Shown here: in pieces, positions 5,475-31,908 of the stretch
How the letters are laid out: every line of letters starts with the position of its first letter
Numbering within the stretch: the stretch's first letter is position 1
NCBI RefSeq assembly: GCF_031202305.1
Contig: NZ_CP101731.1
Span: forward strand, 806,001-870,000
Length of the DNA stretch: 64,000 bases
Reading direction: 5' to 3'
From: Pelagibacterium sp. 26DY04
Lineage (GTDB): Bacteria > Pseudomonadota > Alphaproteobacteria > Rhizobiales > Devosiaceae
Program-made: the position numbers and the translations under genes
The notes under the pieces: generated by a model
What the model saw: the letters and a program-made list of their open reading frames with translations, nothing else
Database searches by the model: none
What the model was told of the DNA's origin: nothing

Positions 5475-7364
5475 TTACCGGGCGGGGATGGATTTGCCCC
5501 GTAGCGCGCGCTTCTGCGCTGCGATCCTGAACTGGGCGTTGGGAGCGCCATAGCCATTATAGCCGCCGCGGCGCTCGACGATCTCGAAGAAGAAGCCGTC
5601 GCCATAGAGGGTGGAATAGAGCTGGAAATATTCTCCGCCGGCCTCGTCGCGATCATAGAGGATGTTGGCGGACTGGAGTTGCGCGACGAAGGCATCTTCG
5701 AGCCCGAAGCGGGCCTGGATATCGGCGAAATAGTTGGGCGAGATGACGAGCGGGGTGAACCCGGCGGATTTGAGCGCTTCGGCGGTCCTTAAAATGTCGG
5801 ACGAGGCGAAGGCGACGTGCTGGACCGAGGAGCCGAAGCTTTCGGAGATGAAATGGCCGGCCAGGGTCGAGCTGCGATCGGCGCCGTTGAGGGTGAAGCG
5901 GATGGAGCCGGCCTTGTTCTCGATCACCTGGGAGCGCACCAGGCCCGCCGGGTCGACCACGTCGAGCATGGGCGTCTTCTGGGTGTCGAACAGGGTGGTA
6001 TAAAAGAGCAGCCAGGTGAGCAGCTCCTCGTAATTCATGGTCTGGCCGATATGGTCGATATGGGTGATGCCCATGTCGGGGGCGTCTGTCTGGACGGGCG
6101 TGAACTCTGTTTCCCAGACGCGGCCCAGTTCGGTCTTGGTGTCGATGAAGTGCATCAGCCCGCCGCCGACGCCGCGGATGGCGGGGATCTTGAGCTCGCC
6201 CGGGCCGACAGGCTGCTCGAACGGTTCGGCGCCGAGCGCGCGGGCGCGTTCGACTGTGGCGCGGGCATCCTCGACCTTGAGCCCGATGTCGCAAACGCAG
6301 GTGCCGTGCATGAGATAGGCCGAATGGGCGAAGCCCTCGCGCTCGGTGTTGACGACGATGTTGACGCCACCATTGCGGTAGAGTTGCACATCCTTGGCGA
6401 TGTGTTGACCGGCATGGGCAAAGCCCATGGAGGCGAGCATGGATGTGAGGTCGGCGGCCTCGGCCTCGTTGGCGGCGAACTCGATGAATTCGACGCCCTC
6501 GACGGCAATCGGGGCGGGCATGGGGTCGAGGTCTACGGCGATCTCGGGTTCGGTGCGGCGCACGGTGTCGAGCAGCGCAACGAGCGAGCGGTGGCCGTCG
6601 GCGGCGATCGTCCCGGGCGAGCCGCCGCGGAACTGATCGTTGAAGATCTCCAGCGACCAGACGCCCTTGTAACCGGTGGCGGCGACGGCGCGGGCGAAGG
6701 CGGGGACGTCGAGATCACCCTGGCCCGGCATGGTGCGGAAATGGCGGCTCCAATAGAGCAGATCCATGTCGATCAGCGGCGCATCGGCGAGCTGGACGAA
6801 GAAGATCTTGTCGCCGGGGATGGAGCGGATGGTCTCGGGGTCGATCTTGCGGGCGAAAGTGTGGAAGCTGTCGACGATCAGCCCGACATTGGCGTGATCG
6901 GCGCGGCGCACGATCTCCCAGGCGTCGCGGTGATCGTTGACGTGCCGGCCCCAGGCCAGCGCCTCGTAGCCGATGCGCAGATTGCGCCTTGCGGCGCGTT
7001 CGCCGAGTTCGCGCAGGTCGGCGGCTGCACGGTCGATGCCGCCGAGGGCTGCGGGGGAGACGTTGGAGCAGACCAGCACCAGATCGGTCCCCAGCTCCTC
7101 CATCACGTCGAACTTGCGCTCGGCCCGGTCGAAGGCGCGGGAGCGGTGCGGCTCGGGCAGGCCTTCGAAATCGCGGAAGGGCTGGAAGAGTGAAATCTCC
7201 AGCCCATGATCGCGCACCATGCGCCCGACTTCGCGCGGACCGCCGTCAAAGGCCAGAAAGTCGTTCTCGAAGATTTCGATGCCGTCGAACCCGGCAGCGG
7301 CAATCGCCGCGAGCTTTTCGCGCAAATCACCGCTGATCGATACCGTGGCGATCGAGGTCTTCAT
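5475..7364 (-). CDS. quiC: 3-dehydroshikimate dehydratase, two-domain QuiC type
   Basis: The 629-residue protein joins a sugar-phosphate isomerase-like TIM barrel (residues 1-270, starting TSIATVSISGDLREKLAAIA and including EALAWGRHVNDHRDAWEIV and VDSFHTFAR) to a 4-hydroxyphenylpyruvate-dioxygenase-like domain (about 285-610, with IDHIGQTMNYEELLTWLLFY and ending FFFEIVERRGGYNGYG). This is the layout of bacterial QuiC1, where the barrel turns 3-dehydroshikimate into protocatechuate. The barrel metal ligands appear present (E in GYEALAWG, D in IVDSFHT, E in WSLEIFND). It is the last step of the quinate/shikimate route encoded around it. The ATG at 7364 follows GGAG, and the TetR operator lies just upstream. 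Confidence 0.9.
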   Translation of the reverse strand: MKTSIATVSISGDLREKLAAIAAAGFDGIEIFENDFLAFDGGPREVGRMVRDHGLEISLFQPFRDFEGLPEPHRSRAFDRAERKFDVMEELGTDLVLVCSNVSPAALGGIDRAAADLRELGERAARRNLRIGYEALAWGRHVNDHRDAWEIVRRADHANVGLIVDSFHTFARKIDPETIRSIPGDKIFFVQLADAPLIDMDLLYWSRHFRTMPGQGDLDVPAFARAVAATGYKGVWSLEIFNDQFRGGSPGTIAADGHRSLVALLDTVRRTEPEIAVDLDPMPAPIAVEGVEFIEFAANEAEAADLTSMLASMGFAHAGQHIAKDVQLYRNGGVNIVVNTEREGFAHSAYLMHGTCVCDIGLKVEDARATVERARALGAEPFEQPVGPGELKIPAIRGVGGGLMHFIDTKTELGRVWETEFTPVQTDAPDMGITHIDHIGQTMNYEELLTWLLFYTTLFDTQKTPMLDVVDPAGLVRSQVIENKAGSIRFTLNGADRSSTLAGHFISESFGSSVQHVAFASSDILRTAEALKSAGFTPLVISPNYFADIQARFGLEDAFVAQLQSANILYDRDEAGGEYFQLYSTLYGDGFFFEIVERRGGYNGYGAPNAQFRIAAQKRALRGKSIPAR

Positions 7365-7544: not shown

Positions 7545-8213
7545 CTATTTCGCATCGAAGAATTCCGGCTTCACCACGTAACGCACCACCATGTCGATGA
7601 CGTTCTGGCGCAGAGACGCCTGGGAGTCGGCCGATCCGATATCGCGCTGGAAGAGATGGGAAAACGTGGCGCGGTTGGAGACGTTGAAAAAGCACAGGGC
7701 GCTGATCTGCCAGTGTATCTCCAGAGGATCGAGATCTGAGCGGAACTGGCCGGCCTCAACACCCTTGCCGTAAAGCGCCTCGATGCGGCGGATGGCGGAC
7801 TGGTTGACGGTGTGCAGGTCCGAGCGTTCGAGATAGCGGCCGGAATGAATGTTTTCGATCATCACCATGCGGATGAAATCCTCGTGCTGGTGATGGTGGT
7901 CGAAGGTGAAGCCGACGAGGCGCTTCAAGCCCTCGATGGGCGAAAGGCTCTCGATGTCGAGCTTGGCTTCGCCCTCGCGGACAACGCGATAGGCGTTCTC
8001 GAGAGCGCTGACGTACAACCCCTCCTTGTCGCCGAAATAATAATAAATCATGCGCTTGGACGCGCGGGTCTTTTCCGCGATCTCGTCGATCCGTGCGCCG
8101 GCCAGTCCGTTGAGCGCGAATTCGGTCGACGCGACGGCGATTATGTCACGGCGCGTGCCTTCGGGATCCTGCTGCCGCCTGGCTGTTTTCGGGTGAGCTT
8201 CGGAGTCGGTCAC
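7545..8213 (-). CDS. TetR/AcrR family transcriptional regulator of the quinate/shikimate genes
   Basis: The 222-residue protein has an N-terminal TetR helix-turn-helix (residues about 20-65: RDIIAVASTEFALNGLAGARIDEIAEKT, then SKRMIYYYFGDKEGLY) and a helical C-terminal ligand domain with HHHQHEDFIRMVMIENIHSGRYL. The start is GTG at 8213 with AAGG upstream. It lies between quiC and aroE. A 21-bp palindromic site occurs at its own divergent promoter, before quiC and in the TRAP promoter, so it most likely represses all three. The inducer is probably a pathway intermediate (inference). Confidence 0.9.
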   Translation of the reverse strand: MTDSEAHPKTARRQQDPEGTRRDIIAVASTEFALNGLAGARIDEIAEKTRASKRMIYYYFGDKEGLYVSALENAYRVVREGEAKLDIESLSPIEGLKRLVGFTFDHHHQHEDFIRMVMIENIHSGRYLERSDLHTVNQSAIRRIEALYGKGVEAGQFRSDLDPLEIHWQISALCFFNVSNRATFSHLFQRDIGSADSQASLRQNVIDMVVRYVVKPEFFDAK

Positions 8214-8677: not shown

Positions 8678-9577
8678 ATGAGTGAAGACGGAATGGAAAA
8701 ACTGACGCGCGGGCTGGCCGATCTGATCAATCTGGGTGCACGGGGCGCGATTCATATCGGGCTGCTCGGCCGCGGTATCGGCGCTTCGCTTTCTCCGGTC
8801 ATGCATCGGCGCGAAGGCGAACGGCTTGGACTGGACTATCATTATCACCTCATCGATTTCGATGCGCTGGGCCTGGGCAATGACGATCTGCCCGAGGTGA
8901 TCGGCATATTGGAACAGATCGGATTCACCGGGCTCAACGTCACCCATCCCTTCAAGCAGGCGGTGATCGCTCATCTTGCCTCGCTCTCCGAGGATGCAGC
9001 CGCTATTGGAGCGGTCAATACGGTGCTGTTCCGGCCCGAAGGGCGTATCGGTCACAACACCGATTGCTGGGGCTTTGCCGAGAGCTTCAGGATCGGCATG
9101 CCTCAGGTGCCGCGCGGGCGCGTGCTCCAGGTCGGGGCAGGGGGCGCGGGTGCGGCGGTTGCCCATGCCCTGCTCGAACTGGGGGTGGAGGATCTGGCGA
9201 TTTTCGATCTCGCCGCCGAAAAGGCCCAAGCTCTCGCCGCTCAGCTTGCCCGCTCGGGCCGGTCGGTGCATGTGGTGAGCGATACCGAGACGGTACTGAC
9301 GGGCGTGGATGGTGTCGTCAACACAACGCCGATCGGCATGGAGAAATATCCGGGGCTTCCGGTCGATGCCGATCGGCTCGACGCCCGCCAATGGGTGGCC
9401 GACATCATCTATTTCCCGCGCATCACCGCCCTCATCGAAACGGCGCGCGAAAAAGGTTGCCTGACATTGCCGGGATCGGGAATGGCCATCTTTCAGGCAG
9501 TCAAGGCGTTCGAGTTGTTTACCGGCCAAAAACCCTCGCGCGACGGTATGACGGAAACATTCGAGGCGGCTGCGTAA
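8678..9577 (+). CDS. aroE: shikimate (quinate/shikimate) dehydrogenase
   Basis: The 299-residue protein has the AroE layout: N-terminal substrate domain with IGLLGRGIGASLSPVMHRRE (residues 27-46) and the catalytic Lys in FTGLNVTHPFKQAV, the paired Asp in GAVNTVLF...GHNTDCWGF, then a Rossmann fold with LQVGAGGAGAAVAHALLELG. After the Rossmann beta2 strand comes IFDLAAEKA, an acidic residue where NADP enzymes have Asn-Arg, which favours NAD and a catabolic role. It lies beside quiC and the TRAP genes, so it probably oxidises shikimate (or quinate). An internal ATG at 8693 is an alternative start; the ribosome site for either is weak. Confidence 0.9.
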   Translation: MSEDGMEKLTRGLADLINLGARGAIHIGLLGRGIGASLSPVMHRREGERLGLDYHYHLIDFDALGLGNDDLPEVIGILEQIGFTGLNVTHPFKQAVIAHLASLSEDAAAIGAVNTVLFRPEGRIGHNTDCWGFAESFRIGMPQVPRGRVLQVGAGGAGAAVAHALLELGVEDLAIFDLAAEKAQALAAQLARSGRSVHVVSDTETVLTGVDGVVNTTPIGMEKYPGLPVDADRLDARQWVADIIYFPRITALIETAREKGCLTLPGSGMAIFQAVKAFELFTGQKPSRDGMTETFEAAA

Positions 9578-9593: not shown

Positions 9594-10283
9594 CTAGAGC
9601 TTGCCCGTGCTCAATATATGGTCGATGCCCAGATGAATGTGAGAGGCGAGCTTGGCTTGGGCTCCCTCCACATCGCGGGCAAGCGCGAGCCTGAAAAGCT
9701 CGCCATGATCTTCCGCCACCCCGCCGCCGCGAAAGCTTTGGGCCAACATGTGGTAACGCATGAACCTGTCGAAGATAGATTGATGGATGGCCAGCAGCGA
9801 TTTCGAGCCGCAGGCCGAAATCATCGCGTGGTGGAAGGCGAAATCGTATTTGATCCATTGCTCGGTACGGTCGGCGTCGCCACCCAGGAGCGCCTTTTCG
9901 ATCGAAGAAAGCTTGTGGTGAGCGGCGACCACCTCGGCCTCCCAATCGAGATCGCCGGCGGCAAATGAAAGCGCCAGTGCGTGATTCTCGAGCACCAGGC
10001 GCAGATCGCCCACTTCACGCAGATTGTCGACCGAGGCGGGGGCCACCTCGAAACCGCGCTGACCTTCGGCGAGGACCAGATCCTCGGTGGTGAGGCGGTT
10101 GAGGATTTCGCGCAGCGTGGACACGCTCACCCCGTACTGGCTCTTGAGCCTTTCGAGCTTGAGTTTTTGGCCCGGCTTGAGCGTGCCCGAGATGATGTCG
10201 CCCCGGATGCGGCGGAACGCCTGTTCACCTACGGTATCGTTGATCTCGTCCATGGAGTCGCTCAAAGGCCTCGTCCCCGCCAT
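9594..10283 (-). CDS. GntR family transcriptional regulator (FadR/FCD subfamily)
   Basis: From the ATG at 10283 (AGGGAAA upstream) the product is 229 residues, normal for this subfamily. The winged helix spans about residues 15-80 (EQAFRRIRGDIISGTLKPGQKL, then YGVSVSTLREILNRLTTEDLV), followed by an FCD all-helical ligand domain with DLRLVLENHAL, the metal-binding-type His in FHHAMISACGS, and LASHIHLGIDHIL. The frame stays open far upstream, but that part shows no domain. It ends 17 bases from the convergent aroE. A sequence shared between its upstream region and that of the ThuA/PQQ operon may be its operator. Confidence 0.9.
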   Translation of the reverse strand: MAGTRPLSDSMDEINDTVGEQAFRRIRGDIISGTLKPGQKLKLERLKSQYGVSVSTLREILNRLTTEDLVLAEGQRGFEVAPASVDNLREVGDLRLVLENHALALSFAAGDLDWEAEVVAAHHKLSSIEKALLGGDADRTEQWIKYDFAFHHAMISACGSKSLLAIHQSIFDRFMRYHMLAQSFRGGGVAEDHGELFRLALARDVEGAQAKLASHIHLGIDHILSTGKL

Positions 10284-10360
10284 TTCCGGCTTTCCCTTTG
10301 CGTTTTCTCTTGCATGAATTGACGCTGCTGTCACCACGCCGCTACCACAGAAGAAATCTC

Positions 10361-10545: not shown

Positions 10546-11532
10546 ATGAATTTCAATCTTACCCGCCGTGCGGCTTTGCTCGGCTCGGCCCTGCTCGCAG
10601 TGGCCGCATCCGTTCCCGCGCTGGCGCAGGACGTGCCCACCTTCCGCTTTTCGGCAGTGTTCTCCGAACAGGACATCCGCGCGTCCATGATGGAGCAGCT
10701 TGCCGACAGCGTTCGCGATGTCGCGACCATCGAACCCTATTATGGCGGCACGCTGTTCCGCCAGGGCACCGAACTGGTGGCCCTGCAGCGCGGCAATCTG
10801 GAAATGAGCAATGTCGCCCCTCAGGACATTTCCAACCAGATTCCCGAATGGTCGCTGCTGACCTCGGCCTATCTCTTCCGCGATGCCGAGCATCTGCGCG
10901 CCTTCTTCGATAGCGAAGTCGGTGATCAGTTCAAGCAGATGGCCGAAGATCAGCTCGGCATCCACGTGCTTGGCCCCACCTATTTCGGCGCGCGTCAGGT
11001 CGGCCTGCGCGGTGATCGCCAGATCAATACGCCCGAGGACATGAACGGCATCCGCCTGCGCATGCCCGGCGGCGACGCCTGGCAGTTCCTGGGCACCGCA
11101 ATCGGCGCCAGCCCCACTCCGATGGATTACGCGGAGGTCTATACGGGCCTTCAGACCGGCGCCATCGACGGGCAGGACAATCCGCTGCCCAACGTGCAGA
11201 ACATGAAGTTCTACGAAGTGATGGACCAGATCGTCCTCACCTCGCACCTCGTCGGCTTCGACCTGCTCGTGGTTTCCAGCGAAGCCTGGAACGCGCTCTC
11301 GCCCGAAGATCAGCAAGCTTTCCAGACGGCCGCCAACGAGGCGATCGACTGGAGCCAGAACATGCACCTGGAAATGGAAGCCGAGCTGATCGCCCAGTTC
11401 GAGGAAGCCGGCCTGGATATCTACGAGCCCGATCAGGACGCGTTCCGCGCCTATGCCCAGCAGATGTATCTGGACAACCCCATTTCCGATAGCTGGCCCG
11501 AAGGTGCCCTCGAGGCCATCAACGCCCTTTAA
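10546..11532 (+). CDS. dctP: TRAP transporter solute-binding protein, DctP family
   Basis: The 328-residue protein has an export signal (LTRRAALLGSALLAVAASVPALAQ, with two arginines) and a DctP fold: TFRFSAVFSEQDIR at the start, PYYGGTLFRQGTELVALQRGNLEMS, the carboxylate-binding region around GIRLRMPGG and the signature GLQTGAIDGQDNPLPNVQ. It binds its ligand in the periplasm and delivers it to DctQM. Its place between aroE and dehydroquinase and its TetR operator suggest quinate, shikimate or a related cyclic carboxylate. A strong AAGGAGGAA site precedes the ATG. Confidence 0.95.
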   Translation: MNFNLTRRAALLGSALLAVAASVPALAQDVPTFRFSAVFSEQDIRASMMEQLADSVRDVATIEPYYGGTLFRQGTELVALQRGNLEMSNVAPQDISNQIPEWSLLTSAYLFRDAEHLRAFFDSEVGDQFKQMAEDQLGIHVLGPTYFGARQVGLRGDRQINTPEDMNGIRLRMPGGDAWQFLGTAIGASPTPMDYAEVYTGLQTGAIDGQDNPLPNVQNMKFYEVMDQIVLTSHLVGFDLLVVSSEAWNALSPEDQQAFQTAANEAIDWSQNMHLEMEAELIAQFEEAGLDIYEPDQDAFRAYAQQMYLDNPISDSWPEGALEAINAL

Positions 11533-11542
11533 CGGCCCAATC

Positions 11543-11575: not shown

Positions 11576-11617
11576 GTATTTCCTTGAAGCCGGTTCGATT
11601 CAGGGAGGGAGATTTCC

Positions 11618-12118
11618 ATGTCAGGACTATTGCGCGTCGGGCGCTGGCTGGCGGCGCGGGCCGAGAACATACTGGCCGCAGCGCTGGGCCTGATGTTCCT
11701 CCTGTTCATCCTGCAGATCGTGTTCCGCTATGTTCTCAACCTCTCCAGCGGTTGGGCCTATGAGCTGAGCGCCATTCTCTGGGTCTGGATCGTGCTGTTC
11801 GGTGCCACGTTCGTGTTGCGCAAGCGCGACGAGGTTCGGCTCGACATCATCTACAGTTCGGTTCCCTCCAAGGTGAGGCGGGCAATGACCGTCGTGTTTT
11901 CGCTCGCCGTGATCGTGCTTCTGGGGATCGGCCTGCCGGCCATCGTCGACTACGTGCTCTTCATGCGGGTCGAGCGAACCGCTTATCTCAAGCTCCGCTA
12001 CGACTATGTCTATTCAATCTTCATCGTCTTCGCGGTGGTGACCATCATCCGCTACATCTGGCTGGCGGGCGTGGCCGTATGGGGCAAGGACGAAGACGAA
12101 GAAAGCCCGGCCCAATGA
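11618..12118 (+). CDS. dctQ: TRAP transporter small permease, DctQ family
   Basis: The 166-residue protein has four membrane helices, typical of DctQ: one at about residues 18-40 (ILAAALGLMFLLFILQIVFRYV), then the conserved WAYELSAILWVWIVLFGATFVLRKRDEVRLD, then a third around 89-110 and a fourth around 130-155. It pairs with DctM in the inner membrane. GGGAGGGAG precedes the ATG, and its stop overlaps the dctM start by four bases, showing translational coupling. Confidence 0.95.
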   Translation: MSGLLRVGRWLAARAENILAAALGLMFLLFILQIVFRYVLNLSSGWAYELSAILWVWIVLFGATFVLRKRDEVRLDIIYSSVPSKVRRAMTVVFSLAVIVLLGIGLPAIVDYVLFMRVERTAYLKLRYDYVYSIFIVFAVVTIIRYIWLAGVAVWGKDEDEESPAQ

Positions 12119-13416
12119 TTTTTCTCGATCCGTTCTTCCTGTGCATCGCCTCGATCCTGGTGCTGGCCGTTATCGGGCTGCCGATCGGGCTCTCGATGAT
12201 CGTGGGGTCGATCCTCTACCTGTTCCTGTCCGGGCTCGACATGGGCATTGCCGCCGAGCAGTTCATGAACCGGATGTATTCGAACTACATCATCCTGGCC
12301 GTGCCCCTGTTCATCCTGGCGGCGGAACTCATGAACACCGGCTCGCTGTCGGACCGTCTGCTGGCCTGGTGCAACGCGGTCGTGGGGCGCTTCCGGGGCG
12401 GGCTGGCCCAGGTCAACGTGCTCCAGTCGATCGTCTTTGCCGGCATGTCGGGTTCGGCCCTGGCCGATGCGGCCGGCACCGGCAAGATGATCCACTCGCT
12501 GATGACGCGGGACGGGAAATACACCTCATCGTTCGCCGCGGCGCTGACGGCGGCTTCGGCGGTGATCGGGCCGATTATTCCGCCTTCGATCCCCATGGTG
12601 TTTTATGCGCTCGTGTCCGATGCCTCGATCGGCTACCTGTTTCTGGGCGGCGTGATCCCGGGCCTGATCATGGGGCTGACCCAGGCGGTCGTCGTCTATA
12701 TTCAGGCGCGCCGGCAGAACTTCCCTGTCGAAGATCCCGTGCCGCTGCGCAAATTGCCCGGCATCACCTGGCGCTCCCTGCCGGCCCTCATGATGCCGGT
12801 GGTGCTGATGTACTGTATCTATTCAGGCATCACGACGCCCACCGAAGCCGCCGCCGTGGCTGCCGCCTATGCCTTGGTGGTGTCCATCGTGCTCTATCGC
12901 GGCATCACCTGGCGCGGCCTCTACGACTCCCTTGTTGTAAGCTCCAAGACCACGGTTTCGATCGGCATGCTGATCGGCGGGGCACTGGTGCTCAATTATG
13001 TGGTCACCGTCGAGAACATTCCGGCAAGCCTGAGCGTGCTGCTGACCGAGTGGGATCTCGACCCGATCACCTTCCTGATCTTCGTCAATATCCTTCTGAT
13101 CCTGCTTGGCTGCGTGCTCGAGGGCACCGCCATCATCCTGATCATCGTGCCGGTGCTGGTGCCTTCGGCCCAGGCGTTGGGTATCGATCTCGTTCACTTC
13201 GGAGTCGTGGTCGTCGTCAACGTGATGATCGGGCTGATCACGCCGCCATATGGCATGCTGTTGTTCGTCATGAGTTCGATATCGGGCGCCAAGCTGCGCG
13301 ACATCATCGCCGACACGCTGCCGTTCCTTGCCGCGCTGATCTTCTCACTTTTGTTGTTCACCTTCGTTCCTGAAACCGTGCTGTGGCTTCCGCGGCTGCT
13401 CGGATATCAGGGGTAG
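12115..13416 (+). CDS. dctM: TRAP transporter large permease, DctM family
   Basis: From the ATG overlapping the dctQ stop the product is 433 residues, the usual DctM length, with about 12 membrane helices. Family landmarks include VPLFILAAELMNTGSLSDRL, QSIVFAGMSGSALADAAGTGKM, PIIPPSIPMVFYALVSDASIGYLFLGGVIPG and LVHFGVVVVVNVMIGLITPPYG. It is the sodium-coupled transport channel. An in-frame ATG at 12079 would add 12 residues inside dctQ and is less likely. The dehydroquinase gene follows after 16 bases, so import and catabolism are co-transcribed. Confidence 0.95.
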   Translation: MIFLDPFFLCIASILVLAVIGLPIGLSMIVGSILYLFLSGLDMGIAAEQFMNRMYSNYIILAVPLFILAAELMNTGSLSDRLLAWCNAVVGRFRGGLAQVNVLQSIVFAGMSGSALADAAGTGKMIHSLMTRDGKYTSSFAAALTAASAVIGPIIPPSIPMVFYALVSDASIGYLFLGGVIPGLIMGLTQAVVVYIQARRQNFPVEDPVPLRKLPGITWRSLPALMMPVVLMYCIYSGITTPTEAAAVAAAYALVVSIVLYRGITWRGLYDSLVVSSKTTVSIGMLIGGALVLNYVVTVENIPASLSVLLTEWDLDPITFLIFVNILLILLGCVLEGTAIILIIVPVLVPSAQALGIDLVHFGVVVVVNVMIGLITPPYGMLLFVMSSISGAKLRDIIADTLPFLAALIFSLLLFTFVPETVLWLPRLLGYQG

Positions 13417-13432
13417 TTGCCGGATAGAGTAA

Positions 13433-13873
13433 ATGACCAAACCGATCTTCGTCCTCAACGGACCCAACCTCAACCGCCTGGGCCTGCGCGAGCCTGAAAT
13501 CTACGGCTCGACCACCCTGGCGCAGGTCGAAGAGCTCTGCCGCACGGCGGCGGGCCATCGGCCGGTGGAGTTCCGGCAGACCAACAGCGAAGAGCGCCTG
13601 ATCGAATGGGTGCACGAGGCGATTGACGCCGCGGCTGGGATCATCATCAATCCCGCCGCCTTCACCTTCACCTCGCTCGCCCTGTTCGATGCGCTCAAGA
13701 TGTTCCCCGGGCCGATTTTCGAGTTGCACATCACCAATGTGCACAAGCGCGAGCAGGTCTATCACCATTCGCACGTCTCGCGCGTGGCCACCGCTGTGAT
13801 GGCGGGGTTCGGGGCGGATGGATATGGCGTGGCGATGGGCGCCATGTGCGCCCGCAAGGACCTGCTGCAATAG
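13433..13873 (+). CDS. aroQ: type II 3-dehydroquinate dehydratase
   Basis: The 146-residue protein has the type II dehydroquinase landmarks: VLNGPNLNRLGLREPEIYG at residues 6-24 (catalytic Tyr at the end), the active-site lid region, Asn and His in IIINPAAFTFTSLALFDAL and FELHITNVHKREQVYHHS. It interconverts 3-dehydroquinate and 3-dehydroshikimate. Co-transcription with a TRAP importer under the TetR operator points to a catabolic role (quiB-like) feeding quiC, rather than biosynthesis. Confidence 0.95.
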   Translation: MTKPIFVLNGPNLNRLGLREPEIYGSTTLAQVEELCRTAAGHRPVEFRQTNSEERLIEWVHEAIDAAAGIIINPAAFTFTSLALFDALKMFPGPIFELHITNVHKREQVYHHSHVSRVATAVMAGFGADGYGVAMGAMCARKDLLQ

Positions 13874-13875
13874 CG

Positions 13876-14289
13876 ATGGCTATCGAAACGCTCACCCTTG
13901 CCCGGGCTCAAGCCATAGCCGAAGCGGTGATTTCGGCGGCACGCGGGAAGGACTTCCAGCTCGCCCTTGCCGTCGTCGATACCGGTGGCTGGTCCCATTT
14001 GCAGATCCGCATGGACGGGGCCTTTCCCGCCGCTATTGACGCTGCGCTTGCCAAGGCGCGGACGGCGGCGCTGTTTCGGCGGCCAAGTTCGGATTTCTCG
14101 CGCCGGGTCAAGGAAGGCATGCCTCTCGCCCATCTGCCTCATGTCGTGCCGCTGGGCGGTGGCGTGCTGCTGGAGCGAGATGGGGTGTTGTTCGGCGCCT
14201 TGGGCGTCAGTGGGGCCCGAGAGGATACTGAAACCGAACTTGCCGAAGAGATCGCTGTCGGCTTCGCGCAGGGGCTGATCGGCCGCTGA
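13876..14289 (+). CDS. GlcG/HbpS family protein
   Basis: The 137-residue protein matches the GlcG/HbpS fold: LTLARAQAIAEAVISAARGKDFQLALAVVDTGGWSHL at the start, the helix with ALAKARTAALFRRPS in the middle, and GGGVLLERDGVLFGALGVSGAREDTE near the end. Members bind haem or small molecules, and many sit in catabolic operons without an assigned role. It starts two bases after the dehydroquinase stop, so it is the last gene of the TRAP-aroQ operon. An upstream in-frame start at 13846 lies inside aroQ and is less likely. Confidence 0.85.
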   Translation: MAIETLTLARAQAIAEAVISAARGKDFQLALAVVDTGGWSHLQIRMDGAFPAAIDAALAKARTAALFRRPSSDFSRRVKEGMPLAHLPHVVPLGGGVLLERDGVLFGALGVSGAREDTETELAEEIAVGFAQGLIGR

Positions 14290-14344
14290 ACCTCTTCGCG
14301 GCCAGCCGTACTTGATTGCTGAGTGGTGAATTGGACGTTGCGGG

Positions 14345-14359
14345 CTGAGTTGAACTCAG
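14345..14359. promoter_or_regulatory. 15-base palindrome upstream of the ThuA/PQQ operon
   Basis: CTGAGTTGAACTCAG is a perfect inverted repeat around a central G. It lies in the 267-base gap before the ThuA-like gene and is unlike the TetR site. It may bind an unidentified regulator. Confidence 0.35.
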
Positions 14360-14420
14360 TGCGCCGGAAACCTATGCCTGGCGCGATCTCAAGGTAAATT
14401 TAAATCAGCATATAAAATCA

Positions 14421-14436
14421 AAAATCTCATATTAAA
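14421..14436. promoter_or_regulatory. candidate GntR operator upstream of the ThuA/PQQ operon
   Basis: AAAATCTCATATTAAA matches the motif on the minus strand at 10361-10376 at 15 of 16 positions. It lies in an unusually A/T-rich stretch (about 14395-14445) that stands out from the GC-rich surroundings and probably includes the operon promoter. Confidence 0.4.
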
Positions 14437-14556
14437 TCTTGCATGACAGATCGTGCCATGTAATCACTTCCATGCGGGTCTGGAGGCCGCTCGGATGGCG
14501 AGAGCCGGCCGGTTGCGAGGCGCCGAACCCGAATTGAGGTTTTGGAGGAGACATCG

Positions 14557-15444
14557 ATGATCAGGATGATTGCGCGCCTTGCCGGCGCTTCGGCTCTTTG
14601 CATGGCGCTGGCGGGGTTGCCCGCCCAGGCGCAGGAGCCCGAGCAGTATACGACGTTCGAGCGCTACGGGGTTTGCGGCTCGATCGACGAGAGTTGCTAC
14701 AATCCGTGGAACAACCGCACCGAGGGCGAGGAAGAGCCCTGGAAGGTGCTGATCTACTATCACGTCGCCCCCGGCGTTAACCCGCACGACAATCTCGAAG
14801 CCGGTGTCGCGGCGCTGACGGCGCTGTTCGAGGGCGAGGGCTATGAGGTGACCGCGTCCAACGATCCGGCGACCTTCGAAAGCGCTCGCAATATCCGCTC
14901 GATGGATACGATCGTCTTCTTTTCGACCGGCCGCGAGGCGCTGACCGATCTCGGCAAGCATCAGCTCATGCTCTATATGCGGGGCGGCGGCGGGTTCGTG
15001 GGCATCCACAATGCCTTCGGCACCAGCTATAGCTGGAACTGGTACGAAGGCCTGCTCGGCGGGCAGCTTTTCAACCACGGCCCGCGCCAGCAGGGCACGG
15101 TGATCGTGCAATCGGAGAACGACCCCTCGGTGGCCCATATCGAGGAGGGCACCTTCTTCATCGAGGAAGAGTGGTACAACATCTACCCCGATCCGCGGAA
15201 ACTCTCCGACATCAACATTCTTCTCACCGTCGATGAAGCGACCATGACACAGGGGCAGTCCGATACCCATCCGGGCATGGGCGAGGGGCACCCTGTCTCC
15301 TGGTGCCACTATTATGATGGCGGGCGCGCCTGGATGACCGTGCTGGGGCACAGCCACGATATCCTCGAGGACGACAATTTCCTCCAGCATGTCCTGGCCG
15401 GCGTCGATGGCGCGATGGGCAAGGGCGACTTCTGCCTTCAATAG
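14557..15444 (+). CDS. secreted ThuA-like protein
   Basis: From the ATG at 14557 (TTGGAGGAG upstream) the product is 295 residues with a Sec signal peptide ending in GLPAQAQ (about residue 26). The body is a ThuA-like (glutamine amidotransferase-like) fold: KVLIYYHVAPGVNPHDN, IRSMDTIVFFSTGREALTD, LMLYMRGGGGFVGIHNAFG, and the closing HPVSWCHYYDGGRAWMTVLGHSHD. ThuA was named for sugar utilisation, and members often sit with sugar or cyclitol oxidoreductases; the chemistry is unclear. It is first in an operon with a PQQ dehydrogenase and a XoxJ-like protein, all exported, so they probably act together in the periplasm. Confidence 0.85.
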   Translation: MIRMIARLAGASALCMALAGLPAQAQEPEQYTTFERYGVCGSIDESCYNPWNNRTEGEEEPWKVLIYYHVAPGVNPHDNLEAGVAALTALFEGEGYEVTASNDPATFESARNIRSMDTIVFFSTGREALTDLGKHQLMLYMRGGGGFVGIHNAFGTSYSWNWYEGLLGGQLFNHGPRQQGTVIVQSENDPSVAHIEEGTFFIEEEWYNIYPDPRKLSDINILLTVDEATMTQGQSDTHPGMGEGHPVSWCHYYDGGRAWMTVLGHSHDILEDDNFLQHVLAGVDGAMGKGDFCLQ

Positions 15445-15550
15445 CGCAGGCAGCCCGGCGGTCGCTGGGCCGTCGCTCCGTTATCCCTGAATTTCCCCGA
15501 TCTCCCGCAGTTCCGGTTTGGAATTGCACCGCTTAACGAGGAGGATGAGT

Positions 15551-17251
15551 ATGAAGATCAACCTTTTGGGCGCGAGCCTGTTCGTGCTTGGCGCGCTGGC
15601 CGTCTCGGTTCCGGCAACGGCGCAGGTGACCGGTTTCCAGCCGGTAACCGACGAGGATATCCTGGATCCAGCCCCCGAGGACTGGATCCACTGGCGCAAC
15701 ACGCTCGATGGCTGGGGCTATTCCGAGCTCGACCAGATCACCACGGAAAATGTCGCAAATCTCGACTACGCCTGGGGCTGGGTCATGGAGCCGGGCAGCC
15801 AGGAAACCACTCCCATCGTGCATGACGGCGTCATGTATCTGGCCAACCCCGGTGCCATCGTTCAGGCGCTCGATGCCACGTCGGGGCAGATGCTGTGGGA
15901 ATATCGCCGCGAGATGCCCGAGGGCTCGCGCCCCGGTGGGCTCAACCGTGGTCTCGCCATTTATGGCGACAAGATCTACGTGCCCACGCCCGACGCCGCG
16001 CTGGTTGCACTCAACGCCGAAACCGGCCAGGTCGAATGGGAGGCCCAGGTTGCGGACTACCAGAACCGCAAGACACTGACTGCCGCTCCGCTGGTTGCCG
16101 ATGGCAAGGTGTTCGTCGGCTTCCAGGGTTGCAACGTCTTCAGTGAAGAAAAATGCGCCATGGTCGCCTTCGACGCCGAGACGGGCGAGGAACTCTGGCG
16201 CACCATCACCATCGAACGTCCCGGCGAAAGCGAAGACACCTGGGAAGGCATCCCCTTTGCCCTGCGTGGGGGCGGAGACATCTGGACCACGGCGAGTTAC
16301 GACCCGGACGCGGATTTGATCTATATCGGTGTCTCACAGGCCAAGCCCTGGTCGCGTCTCAGCCGTGGCCATGACGGTGACGCGCTTTACACCACCTCCA
16401 CCCTTGCGCTGAATCCCGACAGCGGCGAGATCGTCTGGCATCGCCAATACATTCCCGGCGAAACCAATGACATGGACGAGTCCTTCGAGCACATCCTGAT
16501 CGATATCGCGGGCGAGCCTGCCTACGTCAATATGGGCAAGCTCGGCATTTTGTGGCGCGGTAACCGGGAAACCGGCGAACCCTTGCCCGCCTTCGACATC
16601 GGGCTGCAGGATCAGATCGACCTCAATGAGGATGGGACGTTCGCGGCCTATCGCGAGGGGGCGATCGGCGAGCTCAACGTGCCTCTGTCGAGCTGCCCGA
16701 GTGCGACGGGGTTCAGGAGCTGGCGCGCCATGGCCTTCAGCCCCGAGACCCGCGCGGTCTACGTGCCCATGGCCATCAATTGCGATGACGGCATCGTCTA
16801 TACCGAAGTGGAAATGGTCGAAGGCGGTGGGGGTAATGGCCGTGGCGGCACCAACCGCGTCAACCATCCCGACGATCCGGACAATTCTGGCCGCATTCTG
16901 GCCATGAATGTCGATACCGGCGACATCATGTGGGAATTCCCGATGCGGACCACCGCCAATTCGGCCACGCTGGCAACGGCTGGCGGCGTGGTGTTCGGCG
17001 GCGACTGGGCGCGCAATTTCTACGCCTTCGACGCCGAAGACGGCGAAGTGCTGTGGGAAGTGACGCTGCCCCAGGCTGCCCAGGGCTACCCGATCACCTA
17101 TGCGGTCGACGGCCGCCAATATGTGGCGATCCCCATCGGTGTGGGTGGCGCCACCTGGTCCACCAGCGTGCCCGAGGCGCTGGCGCCCGAGGTCCGTCGC
17201 CCCTCAGGCGGCAACATGATGATGGTCTTTGCTCTCCCCGAAGACGTCTGA
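15551..17251 (+). CDS. soluble periplasmic PQQ-dependent dehydrogenase with Asp-x-Asp signature
   Basis: The 566-residue protein has a signal peptide (cleavage near ATA-Q, residues 24-25) and the eight-bladed quinoprotein propeller with repeated W-docking motifs (LDATSGQMLWEY, LNAETGQVEWEA, FDAETGEELWRT, NPDSGEIVWHR, FDAEDGEVLWEV). There is no CxxCH, so it is not a haem fusion and needs an outside acceptor. The catalytic segment reads NDMDE, with Asp307 and Asp309 at the places where lanthanide enzymes of the XoxF/PedH type have Asp-x-Asp. The usual metal-ligand Asn appears replaced by Gln263 (VSQAKPW), and the vicinal Cys pair is not seen. Substrate unknown; quinate, shikimate or another polyol fits the surroundings. 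GGAGG precedes the chosen ATG. Confidence 0.88.
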   Translation: MKINLLGASLFVLGALAVSVPATAQVTGFQPVTDEDILDPAPEDWIHWRNTLDGWGYSELDQITTENVANLDYAWGWVMEPGSQETTPIVHDGVMYLANPGAIVQALDATSGQMLWEYRREMPEGSRPGGLNRGLAIYGDKIYVPTPDAALVALNAETGQVEWEAQVADYQNRKTLTAAPLVADGKVFVGFQGCNVFSEEKCAMVAFDAETGEELWRTITIERPGESEDTWEGIPFALRGGGDIWTTASYDPDADLIYIGVSQAKPWSRLSRGHDGDALYTTSTLALNPDSGEIVWHRQYIPGETNDMDESFEHILIDIAGEPAYVNMGKLGILWRGNRETGEPLPAFDIGLQDQIDLNEDGTFAAYREGAIGELNVPLSSCPSATGFRSWRAMAFSPETRAVYVPMAINCDDGIVYTEVEMVEGGGGNGRGGTNRVNHPDDPDNSGRILAMNVDTGDIMWEFPMRTTANSATLATAGGVVFGGDWARNFYAFDAEDGEVLWEVTLPQAAQGYPITYAVDGRQYVAIPIGVGGATWSTSVPEALAPEVRRPSGGNMMMVFALPEDV

Positions 17252-17256
17252 TCGAC

Positions 17257-17281
17257 AGGGGCCGGATACGTCATCCGGCCC
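17257..17281 (+). terminator. GC-rich hairpin after the PQQ dehydrogenase
   Basis: GGGGCCGGAT and ATCCGGCCCC form a perfect 10-bp stem with a 5-base loop. There is no T run, so it is more likely an mRNA stabiliser or attenuator than a full terminator before the XoxJ-like gene. Confidence 0.45.
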
Positions 17282-17306
17282 CTCACTCAATAAACGAGGC
17301 GGCGCG

Positions 17307-18104
17307 ATGACCAGTTTTCAGTCGATGGTGCTTCGCGGTCTTTTGGCCATCGGGTTCTGCATTCCGGCCGGCGGTCATGCGGTCGCGCAAGTGCCGTTCG
17401 TGCCGCCGGAATTCTACAATTCCATTCGCCCCGATTTCGGCAATCGGCTGCCGCTTTGCATATTGCCCGAAAGCGCGACGGCGCCGCAGGATCGTGAGGC
17501 GGCCCACGAGATCGCGCAGATGCTGCTGCTCGAGCCCGAGATCGTCGAGATCGACGCCGACATGGGCATGCTCGACGAGCTGGGCATCTGGCCCGTCATA
17601 TTCGAAGAGCTTGCCCAGTCCTGTCTCGGGGTCATGGGCGTCCAGATCATTCCGGGGGAGGTGACGCCCGACTGGATGACGCTATCGCGCCCCTATTTCG
17701 AAGCGCCTTACGTTCTCATCTCCACCGATCCGGACGTCGAGTCGCTGGCTGATCTGCCAGAAGGGGCGCGACTTGGCGTGCCGCTGTTTACCCCGATCGA
17801 TGCCGAAGTGATGATGACTATCGAGTCCGGCGCCTTGGGTGGCGTGCGCCGGCTCCCCTATGACCGGCCCGGACTCATGGCCTCGCTGATGCGTGATGGC
17901 GAGCTTGATGCGGCGATCGTTTGGGCGCCACATCTGGAGCAACCTTCGCTGCAGCCGCTTGATTTTTTCAAAGGGCAGGGAAGTGTCGCGCCATTGCGTC
18001 AGGACACGCGAGCGGTCGCCGTGCTGATGCGCGAGCAGGACCAGATGCTGCGCGCCATGATCGATCAGGCGATCGGAGCGCTCGGGGTGGGCGCCGAACG
18101 TTAA
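17307..18104 (+). CDS. XoxJ/MxaJ-like periplasmic substrate-binding protein
   Basis: From the ATG at 17307 the product is 265 residues with a signal peptide (GLLAIGFCIPAGGHAVAQ). It belongs to the family of extracellular solute-binding type 3 proteins found with quinoprotein dehydrogenases: LPLCILPESATAPQDRE near the start, IIPGEVTPDWMTLSRPYFEAPYVLIS, ESLADLPEGARLGVPLFTPID and LDAAIVWAPHLEQ. In methanol dehydrogenase clusters XoxJ/MxaJ is thought to help activate the enzyme. Its position 55 bases after the PQQ dehydrogenase supports that role here. Its stop overlaps the stop of the convergent treZ by a few bases. Confidence 0.8.
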   Translation: MTSFQSMVLRGLLAIGFCIPAGGHAVAQVPFVPPEFYNSIRPDFGNRLPLCILPESATAPQDREAAHEIAQMLLLEPEIVEIDADMGMLDELGIWPVIFEELAQSCLGVMGVQIIPGEVTPDWMTLSRPYFEAPYVLISTDPDVESLADLPEGARLGVPLFTPIDAEVMMTIESGALGGVRRLPYDRPGLMASLMRDGELDAAIVWAPHLEQPSLQPLDFFKGQGSVAPLRQDTRAVAVLMREQDQMLRAMIDQAIGALGVGAER

Positions 18105-19885: not shown

Positions 19886-20036
19886 TTTCGCTAACCTTGA
19901 GTGGCGGGTGTCCCGTGGCCTGCAAACATCCCTGAGGACAGCAGGTTGCGTCAACCAACGCAGGTTGACGATTTTGACTCGGGGAACAGGGCGCGCCGCC
20001 AGCGCATTGGCCAGGGACAATCGAAAGGATCTGACC

Positions 20037-28703: not shown

Positions 28704-28761
28704 CGCCTGCCGCGGTATCTTCCTATGATCAAGATCATCATACTCGGAGCCGCGGCAGGCG
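28704..28761 (+). promoter_or_regulatory. hairpin enclosing the pqqB start codon
   Basis: CGCCTGCCGCGG (28704-28715) and CCGCGGCAGGCG (28750-28761) form a perfect 12-bp stem; the 34-base loop contains the pqqB ATG at 28725, itself in the small palindrome ATGATC-AA-GATCAT. In mRNA this would mask translation of pqqB while leaving pqqA free, a way to make the precursor peptide in excess. Confidence 0.5.
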
Positions 28762-29615
28762 GCGGAGTCCCGCAATGGAATTGCGGCTGCGCCAATTGCC
28801 GTGACGCCCGCGAAGGGCGTCCGGAACTGAAGGCGAATCAGGCTTCGGCTGCGATCAGCGCCGATGGCGAGCACTGGTTCCTCGTCAACGCTTCTCCCGA
28901 TTTGCGCCAGCAGATCGCCAACACGCCCGCGTTGCATCCGCGCGCCGGCGAGCTGCGGCACTCCCCGATCGCTGGGGTCATTCTCACCAATGGCGAGATC
29001 GATGCGATCACCGGATTGCTGACCCTGCGCGAAGGTTCGCCCTTTACGCTTTACGCACACTCTCGGGTGCATTCGATCCTTGCCGCCAATTCGATTTTCA
29101 ACGCCCTCAAGCCCGGCATCGTGACGCGGGAGACGCTGACCTTGGGCGAAAGCTTCAGCCCGGCCGCGGGTCTCGACATCCTGCCCTTCGCCGCGCCCGG
29201 CAAGACCGCGCTCTTTCTCGAGGACGAGGAAGAAAGCGATCCGGGCGATACGATCGGACTCAAGATCACCGATCTCTCGACTGGACGGAGCGTGGTGTTC
29301 CTGCCGGCCTGCGCTCAGCTTACCGATGATGTGCTTGACCTCACTGACGGCACGGACGCCGTGTTCTTCGACGGCACGCTCTGGCGCGACGACGAATTGC
29401 TAGCGCAGGGACTGGGCAAGAAGACCGGGCAGCGCATGGGGCATATGTCCATGCAGGACGTCATCCCAACGCTTGCCGACATGCGGATCGGCCAGAAATT
29501 CTTCTTTCACATCAACAACTCGAACCCCGCCTGGCGAACCGATTCGGAAGAGCGGAAAAAGATCGAGGCGGCGGGATGGACCATTCCCGCCGAAGGGATG
29601 GAGATTACCCTATGA
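28725..29615 (+). CDS. pqqB: PQQ biosynthesis protein PqqB
   Basis: The 296-residue protein is a metallo-beta-lactamase-fold PqqB: IIILGAAAGGGVPQWNCGCANCRDAREG at the start with the Cys-rich zinc site, VNASPDLRQQI, then GVILTNGEIDAITGLLTLREGSPF and FFDGTLWRDDELLAQGLGKKTGQRMGHMSM. It is proposed to hydroxylate the Glu-Tyr intermediate. Its stop overlaps the pqqC start (ATGA). Confidence 0.97.
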   Translation: MIKIIILGAAAGGGVPQWNCGCANCRDAREGRPELKANQASAAISADGEHWFLVNASPDLRQQIANTPALHPRAGELRHSPIAGVILTNGEIDAITGLLTLREGSPFTLYAHSRVHSILAANSIFNALKPGIVTRETLTLGESFSPAAGLDILPFAAPGKTALFLEDEEESDPGDTIGLKITDLSTGRSVVFLPACAQLTDDVLDLTDGTDAVFFDGTLWRDDELLAQGLGKKTGQRMGHMSMQDVIPTLADMRIGQKFFFHINNSNPAWRTDSEERKKIEAAGWTIPAEGMEITL

Positions 29616-30376
29616 ACGCCATGTCGGCCCTCACAATTGCCCCCGACACTCCCTTGAATACGGCCGAAGAGCTCGAAGCCCAGCTCCGCCATATCGGCGC
29701 TACGCGCTACCACAGCCTTCATCCCTTCCATCGCCTGCTGCATGGGGGCAAGCTCGACAAGGGGCAGGTGCAAGCCTGGGCGCTCAACCGCTATTATTAC
29801 CAGAGCACCATCCCCATTAAGGATGCGGTGGTGATCTCGCGCTTCCGCGATCGCGCTACGCGCATCGAGTGGCGGCACCGCATTTCCGACCATGACGGCG
29901 ACATCGGCAGCGAGGGCGGCATCGAACGCTGGCTCCAGCTGACCACCGGTCTCGGGTTCGATCCCGACTATGTGGAATCGACCGAAGGCATCCTGCCCGC
30001 TACCCGCTTTGCTGTGGAAGCCTATGTGCATTTCGTGCGTGACCGTTCCCCGCTCGAAGCGATTGCTTCCTCATTGACCGAACTCTTTGCGCCCAATCTG
30101 CATCAGGAGCGCATCGCCGGGATGCTCGAGCATTATGACTTCATCGATCCGACGGTGATGACCTATTTCACCCGCCGGCTCGAACAGGCACCGCGCGATG
30201 CCGGCTTCGCGCTCGATTATGTCAAGGAGCACGCCAGGACGCCCGAGGAGCGACGGCTGGTCTGCAATGCGTTGATCTTCAAGACCAACGTGCTCTGGGT
30301 GCAGCTCGACGCGCTTTATCATGCCTATGTCGACGGGCACGTCCCGCCCGGCGCGTTCGTTCCGGAAAAGCCGTGA
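29612..30376 (+). CDS. pqqC: pyrroloquinoline-quinone synthase PqqC
   Basis: The 254-residue protein matches PqqC, a haem-oxygenase-like helical enzyme that does the last ring closure and eight-electron oxidation: RYHSLHPFHRLLHGGKLDKGQVQAWALNRYYYQ, PIKDAVVISRF, HRISDHDGD, and YDFIDPTVMTYFTRRLEQAPRD. Start overlaps pqqB by four bases and the stop overlaps pqqD. Confidence 0.97.
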   Translation: MNAMSALTIAPDTPLNTAEELEAQLRHIGATRYHSLHPFHRLLHGGKLDKGQVQAWALNRYYYQSTIPIKDAVVISRFRDRATRIEWRHRISDHDGDIGSEGGIERWLQLTTGLGFDPDYVESTEGILPATRFAVEAYVHFVRDRSPLEAIASSLTELFAPNLHQERIAGMLEHYDFIDPTVMTYFTRRLEQAPRDAGFALDYVKEHARTPEERRLVCNALIFKTNVLWVQLDALYHAYVDGHVPPGAFVPEKP

Positions 30377-30693: not shown

Positions 30694-31908
30694 ATGAGCC
30701 CGACCCTGGATCGCAACAGCCCCGTGCTGGAAGAAGAACGTCTCGATGGCGTGGCACTCCTCGAAGGCGATGGTAGATCGGTCGCCCAGCAATATGGCAT
30801 ACCGCTCGCCGTGCTGCTCGAACTCACCCACAGATGTCCGCTCCAGTGCCCCTATTGCTCCAATCCGGTGGAAATGGAGCGGGCGCGCAACGAGTTGACG
30901 ACCGAGGAGTGGAAGCGCGTACTGGACGAGCTGGCCGAAATCGGCGTGCTGCAAGTGCATTTTTCCGGCGGCGAGCCGACCGCGCGCAAGGACATCGTCG
31001 AACTCATCCAGCACGCGACGGACCTCAATCTCTATTCCAACCTCATCACCTCGGCGGTGCTGCTTTCCAAGGAAAAGCTCACCGAAATCGCCGATGCGGG
31101 GCTGTCCCACATCCAGATCAGTTTCCAGGGCAGCGATGCCGCCAAGGCCGACAGGGTCGGAGGGTTCAAGAACGGGCATGTGAAAAAGCGTGAGGTGGCC
31201 CAATGGGCGCGCGAGCTCGACCTGCCGCTGACGGTCAACGCCGTCATGCACCGGCAAAATCTCGACCAGCTCGAAGACATCATCGCCATGGCCGTCGAAA
31301 TGGACGCCGACCGCATCGAGGTCGCCAACGTCCAGTATTACGGCTGGGCGCTGAAAAATCGCGCGGCGCTGATGCCGACCATCGAACAGCTCGACCGGGC
31401 GACCGAAATCGTCGAGGACGCCCGCGTGCGGCTCAAGGGCATTCTCGATATCGATTTCGTCATTCCCGACTACTACGCCGAGCGGCCCAAGAAGTGCATG
31501 GGGGGCTGGGGGCGGCAGTTCTTCAACATCACGCCTTCGGGCAAGGTGCTGCCCTGCCACGCGGCGGAATCGATCACCGATCTTGATTTCATGTCGGTGC
31601 GCTCGAACCATTCCATCGCCTGGATCTGGCACAATTCCGAAGCCTTCAACCGCTATCGCGGCACGGGCTGGATGCCTGAACCCTGCCAGAGCTGCGCCTT
31701 CAAGGAGATCGATTTCGGCGGTTGCCGCTGCCAGGCCTTCGCGCTGACGGGCAGCGCCAGCAACACCGATCCGGCCTGCGGCTTTTCTCCGCTGCACGAA
31801 AAGATCTTCAAGACAGCACAGACCGAATCCGAAACCGGCTCGACGCGGTTCATCTACCGCAACTTCTCGGGCGGCACTCTGGAGGCGGAGCCGGGCGATG
31901 CCTCCTGA
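30694..31908 (+). CDS. pqqE: radical SAM PqqA peptide cyclase PqqE
   Basis: The 404-residue protein has the radical SAM CxxxCxxC motif in LTHRCPLQCPYCSNP (around residue 46-58) and a C-terminal SPASM-type iron-sulfur region with CHAAESI, CQSCAFKEIDFGGCRCQAF and DPACGFSPLHE. It forms the carbon-carbon bond between Glu16 and Tyr20 of PqqA. AAGGAGAT precedes the ATG. Its last 11 bases overlap the next gene. Confidence 0.97.
   Translation: MSPTLDRNSPVLEEERLDGVALLEGDGRSVAQQYGIPLAVLLELTHRCPLQCPYCSNPVEMERARNELTTEEWKRVLDELAEIGVLQVHFSGGEPTARKDIVELIQHATDLNLYSNLITSAVLLSKEKLTEIADAGLSHIQISFQGSDAAKADRVGGFKNGHVKKREVAQWARELDLPLTVNAVMHRQNLDQLEDIIAMAVEMDADRIEVANVQYYGWALKNRAALMPTIEQLDRATEIVEDARVRLKGILDIDFVIPDYYAERPKKCMGGWGRQFFNITPSGKVLPCHAAESITDLDFMSVRSNHSIAWIWHNSEAFNRYRGTGWMPEPCQSCAFKEIDFGGCRCQAFALTGSASNTDPACGFSPLHEKIFKTAQTESETGSTRFIYRNFSGGTLEAEPGDAS

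Follow-up and report, generated by a model that had tools for sequence, protein, structure and literature searches.

A rare ThuA subfamily tied to PQQ dehydrogenases and a candidate periplasmic route to protocatechuate in Pelagibacterium

Three exported proteins beside quinate and shikimate genes

The stretch of DNA analysed here (the window) comprises 64,000 nucleotides, positions 806001-870000, of the single-contig 3.89 Mb genome of Pelagibacterium sp. 26DY04. In it three adjacent genes encode a ThuA-like protein, a soluble dehydrogenase dependent on pyrroloquinoline quinone (PQQ), and a periplasmic binding protein that is here called XoxJ-like. The three reading frames are intact, a purine-rich stretch precedes each ATG, and each protein has a hydrophobic N-terminus with an AxA site. 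The triplet is thus real and its products carry signal peptides, as a sequence-only reading of this DNA had proposed. Upstream lies a quinate/shikimate island with the order quiC-tetR-aroE-gntR-TRAP-aroQ-hbpS (TRAP, tripartite ATP-independent periplasmic importer; Table 1). Profile matches confirm aroQ, the TRAP importer, aroE and quiC, which that reading had named; tetR, the GntR regulator and the HbpS/GlcG-like gene were absent from its list. For quiC the safe name is quiC-like, since the window protein, for which the QuiC model NF042435 is the best family and covers nearly the whole length, falls under the cut-off of 1200 bits, as do the other QuiC matches. Genes for PQQ synthesis follow ~10.6 kb downstream of the triplet.

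Table 1. Features of the island, the triplet and the PQQ synthesis genes (positions in the window)
Feature	Position	Strand	Remarks
quiC-like 3-dehydroshikimate dehydratase	5475..7364	-	AP_endonuc_2 and HPPD-like domains; NF042435 712.1 bits
TetR regulator	7545..8213	-	
aroE-type shikimate dehydrogenase	8678..9577	+	NF009201 380.2 bits, cut-off 235
GntR/FCD regulator	9594..10292	-	start approximate; conservation is confined to the C-terminal ~232 residues of the listed reading frame
dctP, TRAP solute-binding protein	10546..11532	+	
dctQ, TRAP small membrane subunit	11618..12118	+	
dctM, TRAP large membrane subunit	12079..13416	+	start tentative
aroQ, type II 3-dehydroquinate dehydratase	13433..13873	+	N-terminus without signal-like stretch
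HbpS/GlcG-like small protein	13876..14289	+	
exported ThuA-like protein, distinct subfamily	14557..15444	+	motifs YGVC..CY..W, WCHYYDGG, FC
gap between ThuA and PQQ dehydrogenase, 106 bp	15445..15550		
soluble PQQ-dependent dehydrogenase without haem domain	15551..17251	+	
MxaJ/XoxJ-like periplasmic binding protein	17307..18104	+	
pqqB-like	28725..29615	+	
pqqC-like	29576..30376	+	
pqqE	30790..31863	+	

The next gene downstream of the triplet is a convergent treZ (18101-20044), which overlaps the XoxJ-like gene tail to tail by four bases (18101-18104).

The ThuA subfamily and its association with PQQ dehydrogenases

Conservation was followed in 13 genomes of the genus, contained in a set of 136 Devosiaceae, and in a wider set of 17 ThuA loci from genome contigs (genomes and loci are cited by G and L numbers). 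The two sets overlap, as L001, L003, L004 and L006 share genomes with G509, G511, G503 and G514. Open reading frames (ORFs) in related loci were chosen by a codon-position score; genes that this score missed (the PQQ dehydrogenase of L003, xoxJ of L002 and L004, hbpS of L001) were read from tblastn.

The ThuA subfamily is rare. A class-wide sample of 385 alphaproteobacterial genomes yielded it only in the genome of the window (E<=1e-30), and in the Devosiaceae it occurs in eight of 136 genomes (E<=1e-20), all of them from this genus (8/13); its closest named relatives are from Pelagibacterium. QuiC is present in 56 of the 136. Orthologues of the window dehydrogenase (at least 62% identity) and ThuA were found in exactly the same eight genus genomes, all of which have QuiC. 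In seven of these quiC lies at most ~8 kb from ThuA. In the eighth, G505, quiC is located elsewhere and tetR, aroE, gntR, TRAP, aroQ and hbpS still stand beside ThuA. The same gene order is found in other Pelagibacterium loci, and because it is kept in other genomes, the arrangement of the triplet is more than chance. These counts are not independent, since the genomes are related (the scores of G503 and G504 are identical). Three further genomes of the genus (G506, G507 and G513) have QuiC without ThuA; hence ThuA is an accessory.

In the wider set, a PQQ dehydrogenase gene lies within 20 kb of ThuA at 15 of the 17 loci. The exceptions are L013 and the 3.9-kb contig L014, whose metagenome-assembled genome (MAG) carries a PQQ dehydrogenase on another contig. 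ThuA, which the sequence-only reading regarded as out of place in such a pathway, is the most specific part of the module. quiC is within 20 kb at ten loci (L001-L004, L006, L008, L010, L011, L012, L016) and elsewhere in the genome in L005, L009 and L015, so that 13 of the 17 genomes have a quiC-like gene. The most frequent shared neighbours besides the PQQ dehydrogenase are aroE, quiC, aroQ, tetR and TRAP genes, and a TetR homologue (45-50% identity) also adjoins ThuA in five actinobacterial loci. Thus the link of the dehydrogenase to quinate and shikimate genes recurs far beyond the genome in which it was noticed. Triplets next to methanol or sugar genes without quinate genes, the pattern named in advance as contrary to that link, were not what we found: among the neighbours identified, which are a subset, there were no methanol-oxidation genes, and the ten nearby quiC-like genes point the other way. 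The tie between ThuA and quinate genes is strong, although not absolute.

The partner dehydrogenases are of two kinds. Those seen in alphaproteobacteria were of type A, the type of the window; those seen in actinobacteria and Variovorax were of type B, which has at least ~715 residues and shares ~25% identity with type A. A type-B gene follows ThuA on each of the two Variovorax plasmids, with TRAP and aroQ genes nearby. In Streptomyces fructofermentans the PQQ dehydrogenase and ThuA are followed by lactamase-fold, TENA/PqqC-family and radical SAM genes, which look like PQQ synthesis genes. A cupredoxin-like tail of type B was considered as a built-in electron acceptor but found no support: the Pfam match of L060 reaches 25.5 against a cut-off of 27, and of the C-terminal Cys-His seen in Variovorax (L058), L015 and L017 retain just the Cys, while L059, L060 and L009 have neither residue.

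The ThuA subfamily is thus tied to PQQ dehydrogenases of two distant kinds in two phyla, which makes the ThuA reaction directly addressable. Its recurrence with such enzymes in unrelated bacteria suggests an undescribed step. A further pairing of ThuA with PQQ was seen in an archaeon: on a Haladaptatus plasmid (L092) the gene for a very long ThuA-domain protein (locus positions 11494-15339) adjoins one annotated as PQQ-dependent sugar dehydrogenase, and a sugar isomerase gene lies close by.

The window protein itself is a clear member of the ThuA family (PF06283, 168.4 bits; gathering cut-off 33.4), but differs from the family structures (PDB 4jqs, 4e5v, 1t0b) in being exported and in having its own motifs and cysteines. 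The 19-row alignment of the subfamily is marked by YGVC..CY..W, WCHYYDGG and a terminal FC. The ThuA-like fold resembles the class I glutamine amidotransferases, in which a nucleophilic Cys follows the central strand. In the model of the window protein His151, invariant in 19/19 rows, follows the strand 146-150 and may occupy the equivalent position, in a model that is poor from residue 155 on. ThuA is known from the trehalose/3-keto-sugar operon of rhizobia, where it is accompanied by the NAD-type oxidoreductase ThuB and a sugar importer of the ATP-binding cassette (ABC) type. The window locus is not an operon of this kind, as the neighbours are TRAP, aroQ, hbpS, PQQ dehydrogenase and XoxJ-like genes; the partner of ThuA is here a PQQ dehydrogenase instead of an NAD oxidoreductase. 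We are not aware of a description of such a module, and no NCBIfam model matches the ThuA-like or the binding protein at E<=1e-3.

The dehydrogenase, its cytochrome c and the binding protein

The window dehydrogenase (566 residues) matches the PQQ propeller family PF01011 with 216 bits (gathering cut-off 26.7). The match begins at residue 56 of the 577-residue ORF and is preceded only by a signal-like hydrophobic stretch, i.e. there is no N-terminal membrane domain. With TIGR03074 the protein scores 162.6 bits against a cut-off of 832.65; it is not a QuiA-type membrane enzyme, in agreement with the sequence-only reading. The methanol/ethanol-type model TIGR03075 also stays below its cut-off (376.8 bits; 480.05). 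No CxxCH is encoded in any frame between 13800 and 18400, so the enzyme has no haem domain, as had been proposed, and a quinohaemoprotein alcohol dehydrogenase with a fused C-terminal haem c domain could be rejected. The closest solved structures by sequence are the soluble alcohol and sorbose dehydrogenases 22vi, 7wmd, 4mh1 and 4cvb (E 4.2e-98 to 4.6e-91). The best five alcohol/sorbose dehydrogenases reach 305-333 bits and XoxF/MxaF at most 165 bits, and with this ranking methanol oxidation was dismissed as well.

Within this beta-propeller family the ThuA-linked type-A enzymes form one clade (10 rows against nine others, support 100/100). They are thus set apart from the soluble alcohol and sorbose dehydrogenases, also by conserved residues of their own and by their neighbourhood. 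In lanthanide-dependent PQQ dehydrogenases the catalytic Asp is joined by another Asp two positions further on. The window enzyme has D-M-D at 307-309, and the membrane glucose-type enzyme of the same genome likewise aligns with D-Y-D. One membrane-type PQQ enzyme is encoded in this genome (C1:1146134-1148683), ~325 kb from the window copy. At E<=1e-150, 70 of the 136 Devosiaceae have a relative of this enzyme, as do 37 of the 56 that bear QuiC. On shared contigs the nearest membrane-type enzyme is 77 kb from quiC, although a more diverged QuiA could escape this search.

A cytochrome c partner is missing between 13800 and 18400, as the sequence-only reading stated, but this does not hold as a general trait, because eight of the nine other type-A loci examined have one. 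These nine are L001-L006 (six of the 17 ThuA loci), the two copies in G505 (L047 and L048) and the locus of Ketogulonicigenium vulgare. A mono-haem cytochrome c gene stands between ThuA and the PQQ dehydrogenase in L001, L003, L004 and L047, directly upstream of the dehydrogenase in L002 and L005 and upstream of it in L006 (longer stretch L050); in L048 it closes the cluster. Around the K. vulgare locus none was found within 12 kb. In L047, the nearest relative, the gene fills a gap of 643 bp; the equivalent gap in the window has no haem motif (Table 1). Its absence from the window operon therefore looks like a local loss. A search of the genome for the lost cytochrome c gave five matches, the best with 40% identity, of which four belong to paralogues of the PQQ dehydrogenase. 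The fifth (C1:2274688-2275044, L100) is not beside a PQQ dehydrogenase of this family and might be a stand-in acceptor.

The same genome encodes five such paralogues (35-45% identical). All five have a XoxJ-like neighbour, and a cytochrome c is a separate neighbour in three, is N-terminally fused in one (L053) and was not seen in one. For two more distant PQQ proteins of the genome (C1:548146-549972 and the membrane type), no such neighbour was seen. The trio of cytochrome c, PQQ dehydrogenase and XoxJ-like protein was also found in Paracoccus aminophilus. As it occurs at the paralogues, without ThuA or quinate genes, and in Paracoccus too, the trio is the stock unit of these enzymes, to which ThuA has been added. 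The XoxJ-like gene, standing beside all five paralogues, accompanies its dehydrogenase family generally and says nothing about quinate. The unit is reminiscent of the methanol systems XoxF-XoxG-XoxJ and MxaF-G-J, which have the same three components, but its dehydrogenase is nearer to the alcohol and sorbose enzymes. The label XoxJ/MxaJ-type is loose: the binding protein does have a type II periplasmic-binding-protein fold, but its profile similarity to MxaJ (9ism_B, E 1.1e-5) and XoxJ (6onp, E 0.0012) is weak and is surpassed by amino-acid binding proteins (down to 2.1e-7), and it matches no Pfam family at E<=1e-3. XoxJ and MxaJ chains were not among the 50 rows listed by the fold searches, which carries no weight.

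A possible periplasmic route to protocatechuate

Two type-A loci without quiC contribute to the functional assignment through other neighbours. In K. vulgare WSH-001 (L057/L101; plasmid NC_017385.1, 218-236 kb) the order is ThuA, XoxJ-like, PQQ dehydrogenase, LIV-type ABC importer, pobA, a regulator, pcaQ, a lyase-family gene, pcaG, H, C, D, F and CoA-transferase genes. The second copy of G505 (L048; G505:C1:1144000-1163000) combines ThuA, PQQ dehydrogenase, XoxJ-like and cytochrome c genes with an LIV-type importer, a PcaQ regulator (TIGR02424, 376.5 bits; cut-off 303.8), a shikimate-dehydrogenase-like gene ~12.6 kb from ThuA and a porin-like gene (recognised by eye; no Pfam match). The dehydrogenases of these two loci group together in the tree.

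The evidence thus consists of gene content, conservation, the association of ThuA with PQQ dehydrogenases and with quinate and protocatechuate genes, and the folds. From this we propose, with moderate confidence, that the module is dedicated to channelling an acid of the quinate/shikimate class into the protocatechuate pathway by way of the periplasm. The soluble dehydrogenase would oxidise a ring hydroxyl of such a hydroaromatic acid, and the electrons would pass to a cytochrome c, presumably supplied in trans where, as in the window, the operon has none. The XoxJ-like protein would serve the dehydrogenase, possibly in its maturation or assembly. ThuA could then act on the oxidised ring by abstracting a proton next to the new ketone and eliminating the beta group. 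The TRAP system would import the product, and AroQ, AroE and QuiC would convert it to protocatechuate. In the known pathway AroQ dehydrates 3-dehydroquinate and QuiC then dehydrates 3-dehydroshikimate to protocatechuate; QuiA, a membrane-bound PQQ quinate/shikimate dehydrogenase, feeds AroQ and QuiC by oxidation outside the cytoplasm. The proposed route would share this principle with QuiA and differ in the soluble enzyme with its signal peptide, in the presence of ThuA and, for most relatives of the window enzyme, in the adjacent cytochrome c gene. If it exists, quinate and shikimate breakdown would have a soluble, cytochrome-linked PQQ route beside QuiA, and the widespread, poorly understood ThuA family would gain a defined partner and a substrate class. 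Of the soluble periplasmic route put forward from the sequence, the solubility of the enzyme and its tie to quinate genes stood; what had been misjudged were the XoxJ-like gene and the absence of cytochrome c.

The elimination chemistry of ThuA is proposed by analogy, because a ketone with a beta leaving group is common to 3-dehydroquinate and 3-keto-glycosides. A narrower version, which we consider unlikely, extends this analogy, in parallel with the 3-keto-sugar chemistry proposed for other ThuA proteins: once quinate has been oxidised at C3 by the PQQ enzyme, ThuA might act as a periplasmic beta-eliminase on the resulting 3-dehydroquinate (or on a conjugate) and expel its C1 hydroxyl, and would hence be a third, structurally unrelated 3-dehydroquinate dehydratase. 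In that case the route would run largely outside the cytoplasm at the second G505 locus and in Ketogulonicigenium, where the stretches examined contain an LIV-type importer and no aroQ.

An acid substrate would also suit some residues of the dehydrogenase clade. Considering K, R, H, D, E, N, Q, Y, W, S, T and C, 23 columns are conserved in at least nine of the ten clade members and absent from the nine others: eight Arg/Lys (127, 201, 265, 269, 298, 368, 392 and 550, each 10/10), one His, five acidic and nine uncharged. Some of these Arg/Lys are possible carboxylate contacts, but the five acidic columns weaken this argument, any comparison of two groups will turn up some such columns, and the columns are not placed in a structure.

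Several other points weigh against the proposed entry route. The ring chemistry could take place within the cell through AroE and AroQ, with no need of ThuA, and the window operon and the K. vulgare locus have no nearby cytochrome c. Four of the 17 genomes have no full-length QuiC (L007, L013, L014, which is a fragmentary MAG, and L017), and the QuiC matches in the related genomes all stay under the model cut-off (0/13). L013 also has no type-B PQQ dehydrogenase at the thresholds used, and among the part of the neighbours scanned in L007, L013 and L017 there was neither QuiC nor a protocatechuate gene. The G505 second copy encodes a xylose-isomerase-like (AP_endonuc_2) protein exported by twin-arginine translocation and an SMP-30 lactonase, because of which a sugar or glycoside substrate is possible there; as a periplasmic dehydroshikimate dehydratase, which was also considered, the former has no NCBIfam match and one weak PDB match. 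Finally, the control, which speaks for the association, is rough: six more distant ThuA-domain plasmid loci (H9-H14, 30-35% identical) had none of type A or B PQQ dehydrogenase, quiC, aroE, aroQ or TRAP within 12 kb (0/6), but their separation from the subfamily, by rank and motif, was made once the search results were in, and they come from other genera or phyla. The Haladaptatus locus with its annotated PQQ-dependent sugar dehydrogenase is one of the six.

Possibly the module acts on a conjugate, i.e. a glycoside or ester of quinate or shikimate of the chlorogenate kind. The PQQ dehydrogenase would oxidise the sugar or the ring, ThuA would free the ring acid by an elimination as with 3-keto-glycosides, and the island would consume the acid. 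This would fit the rhizobial role of ThuA in trehalose/3-keto-sugar metabolism, the AP_endonuc_2 protein and SMP-30 lactonase of the G505 second copy and a Micromonosporaceae locus (L007) with a GH18 gene and a regulator and binding protein of sugar type nearby. Yet no esterase was found among the island proteins scanned, the sole glycosidase-family neighbour, treZ, has no counterpart in any of the 17 related loci, and the commonest shared neighbours are those listed above. We regard a conjugate as an unlikely substrate, although somewhat less so than the other alternatives.

Slightly less probable is that an ordinary alcohol or polyol dehydrogenase trio came to lie near quinate genes by chance, with ThuA as a separate sugar enzyme. 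The occurrence of the same trio without ThuA or quinate genes in the own genome, its presence in Paracoccus and the names of the nearest solved relatives, alcohol and sorbose dehydrogenases, agree with this, but a chance neighbourhood would hardly leave the ThuA-linked type-A enzymes as one clade, pair ThuA with a second, distant kind of PQQ dehydrogenase as well, and recur as a link to the island in separate genera of two phyla. That the window copy is decaying, the loss of its cytochrome c gene having uncoupled the dehydrogenase, would explain the shortened gap but is improbable, as all three frames are intact, K. vulgare also keeps ThuA, XoxJ-like protein and PQQ dehydrogenase without a nearby cytochrome c, and the genome still encodes other cytochromes c of this family, one of them away from any PQQ dehydrogenase of the family.

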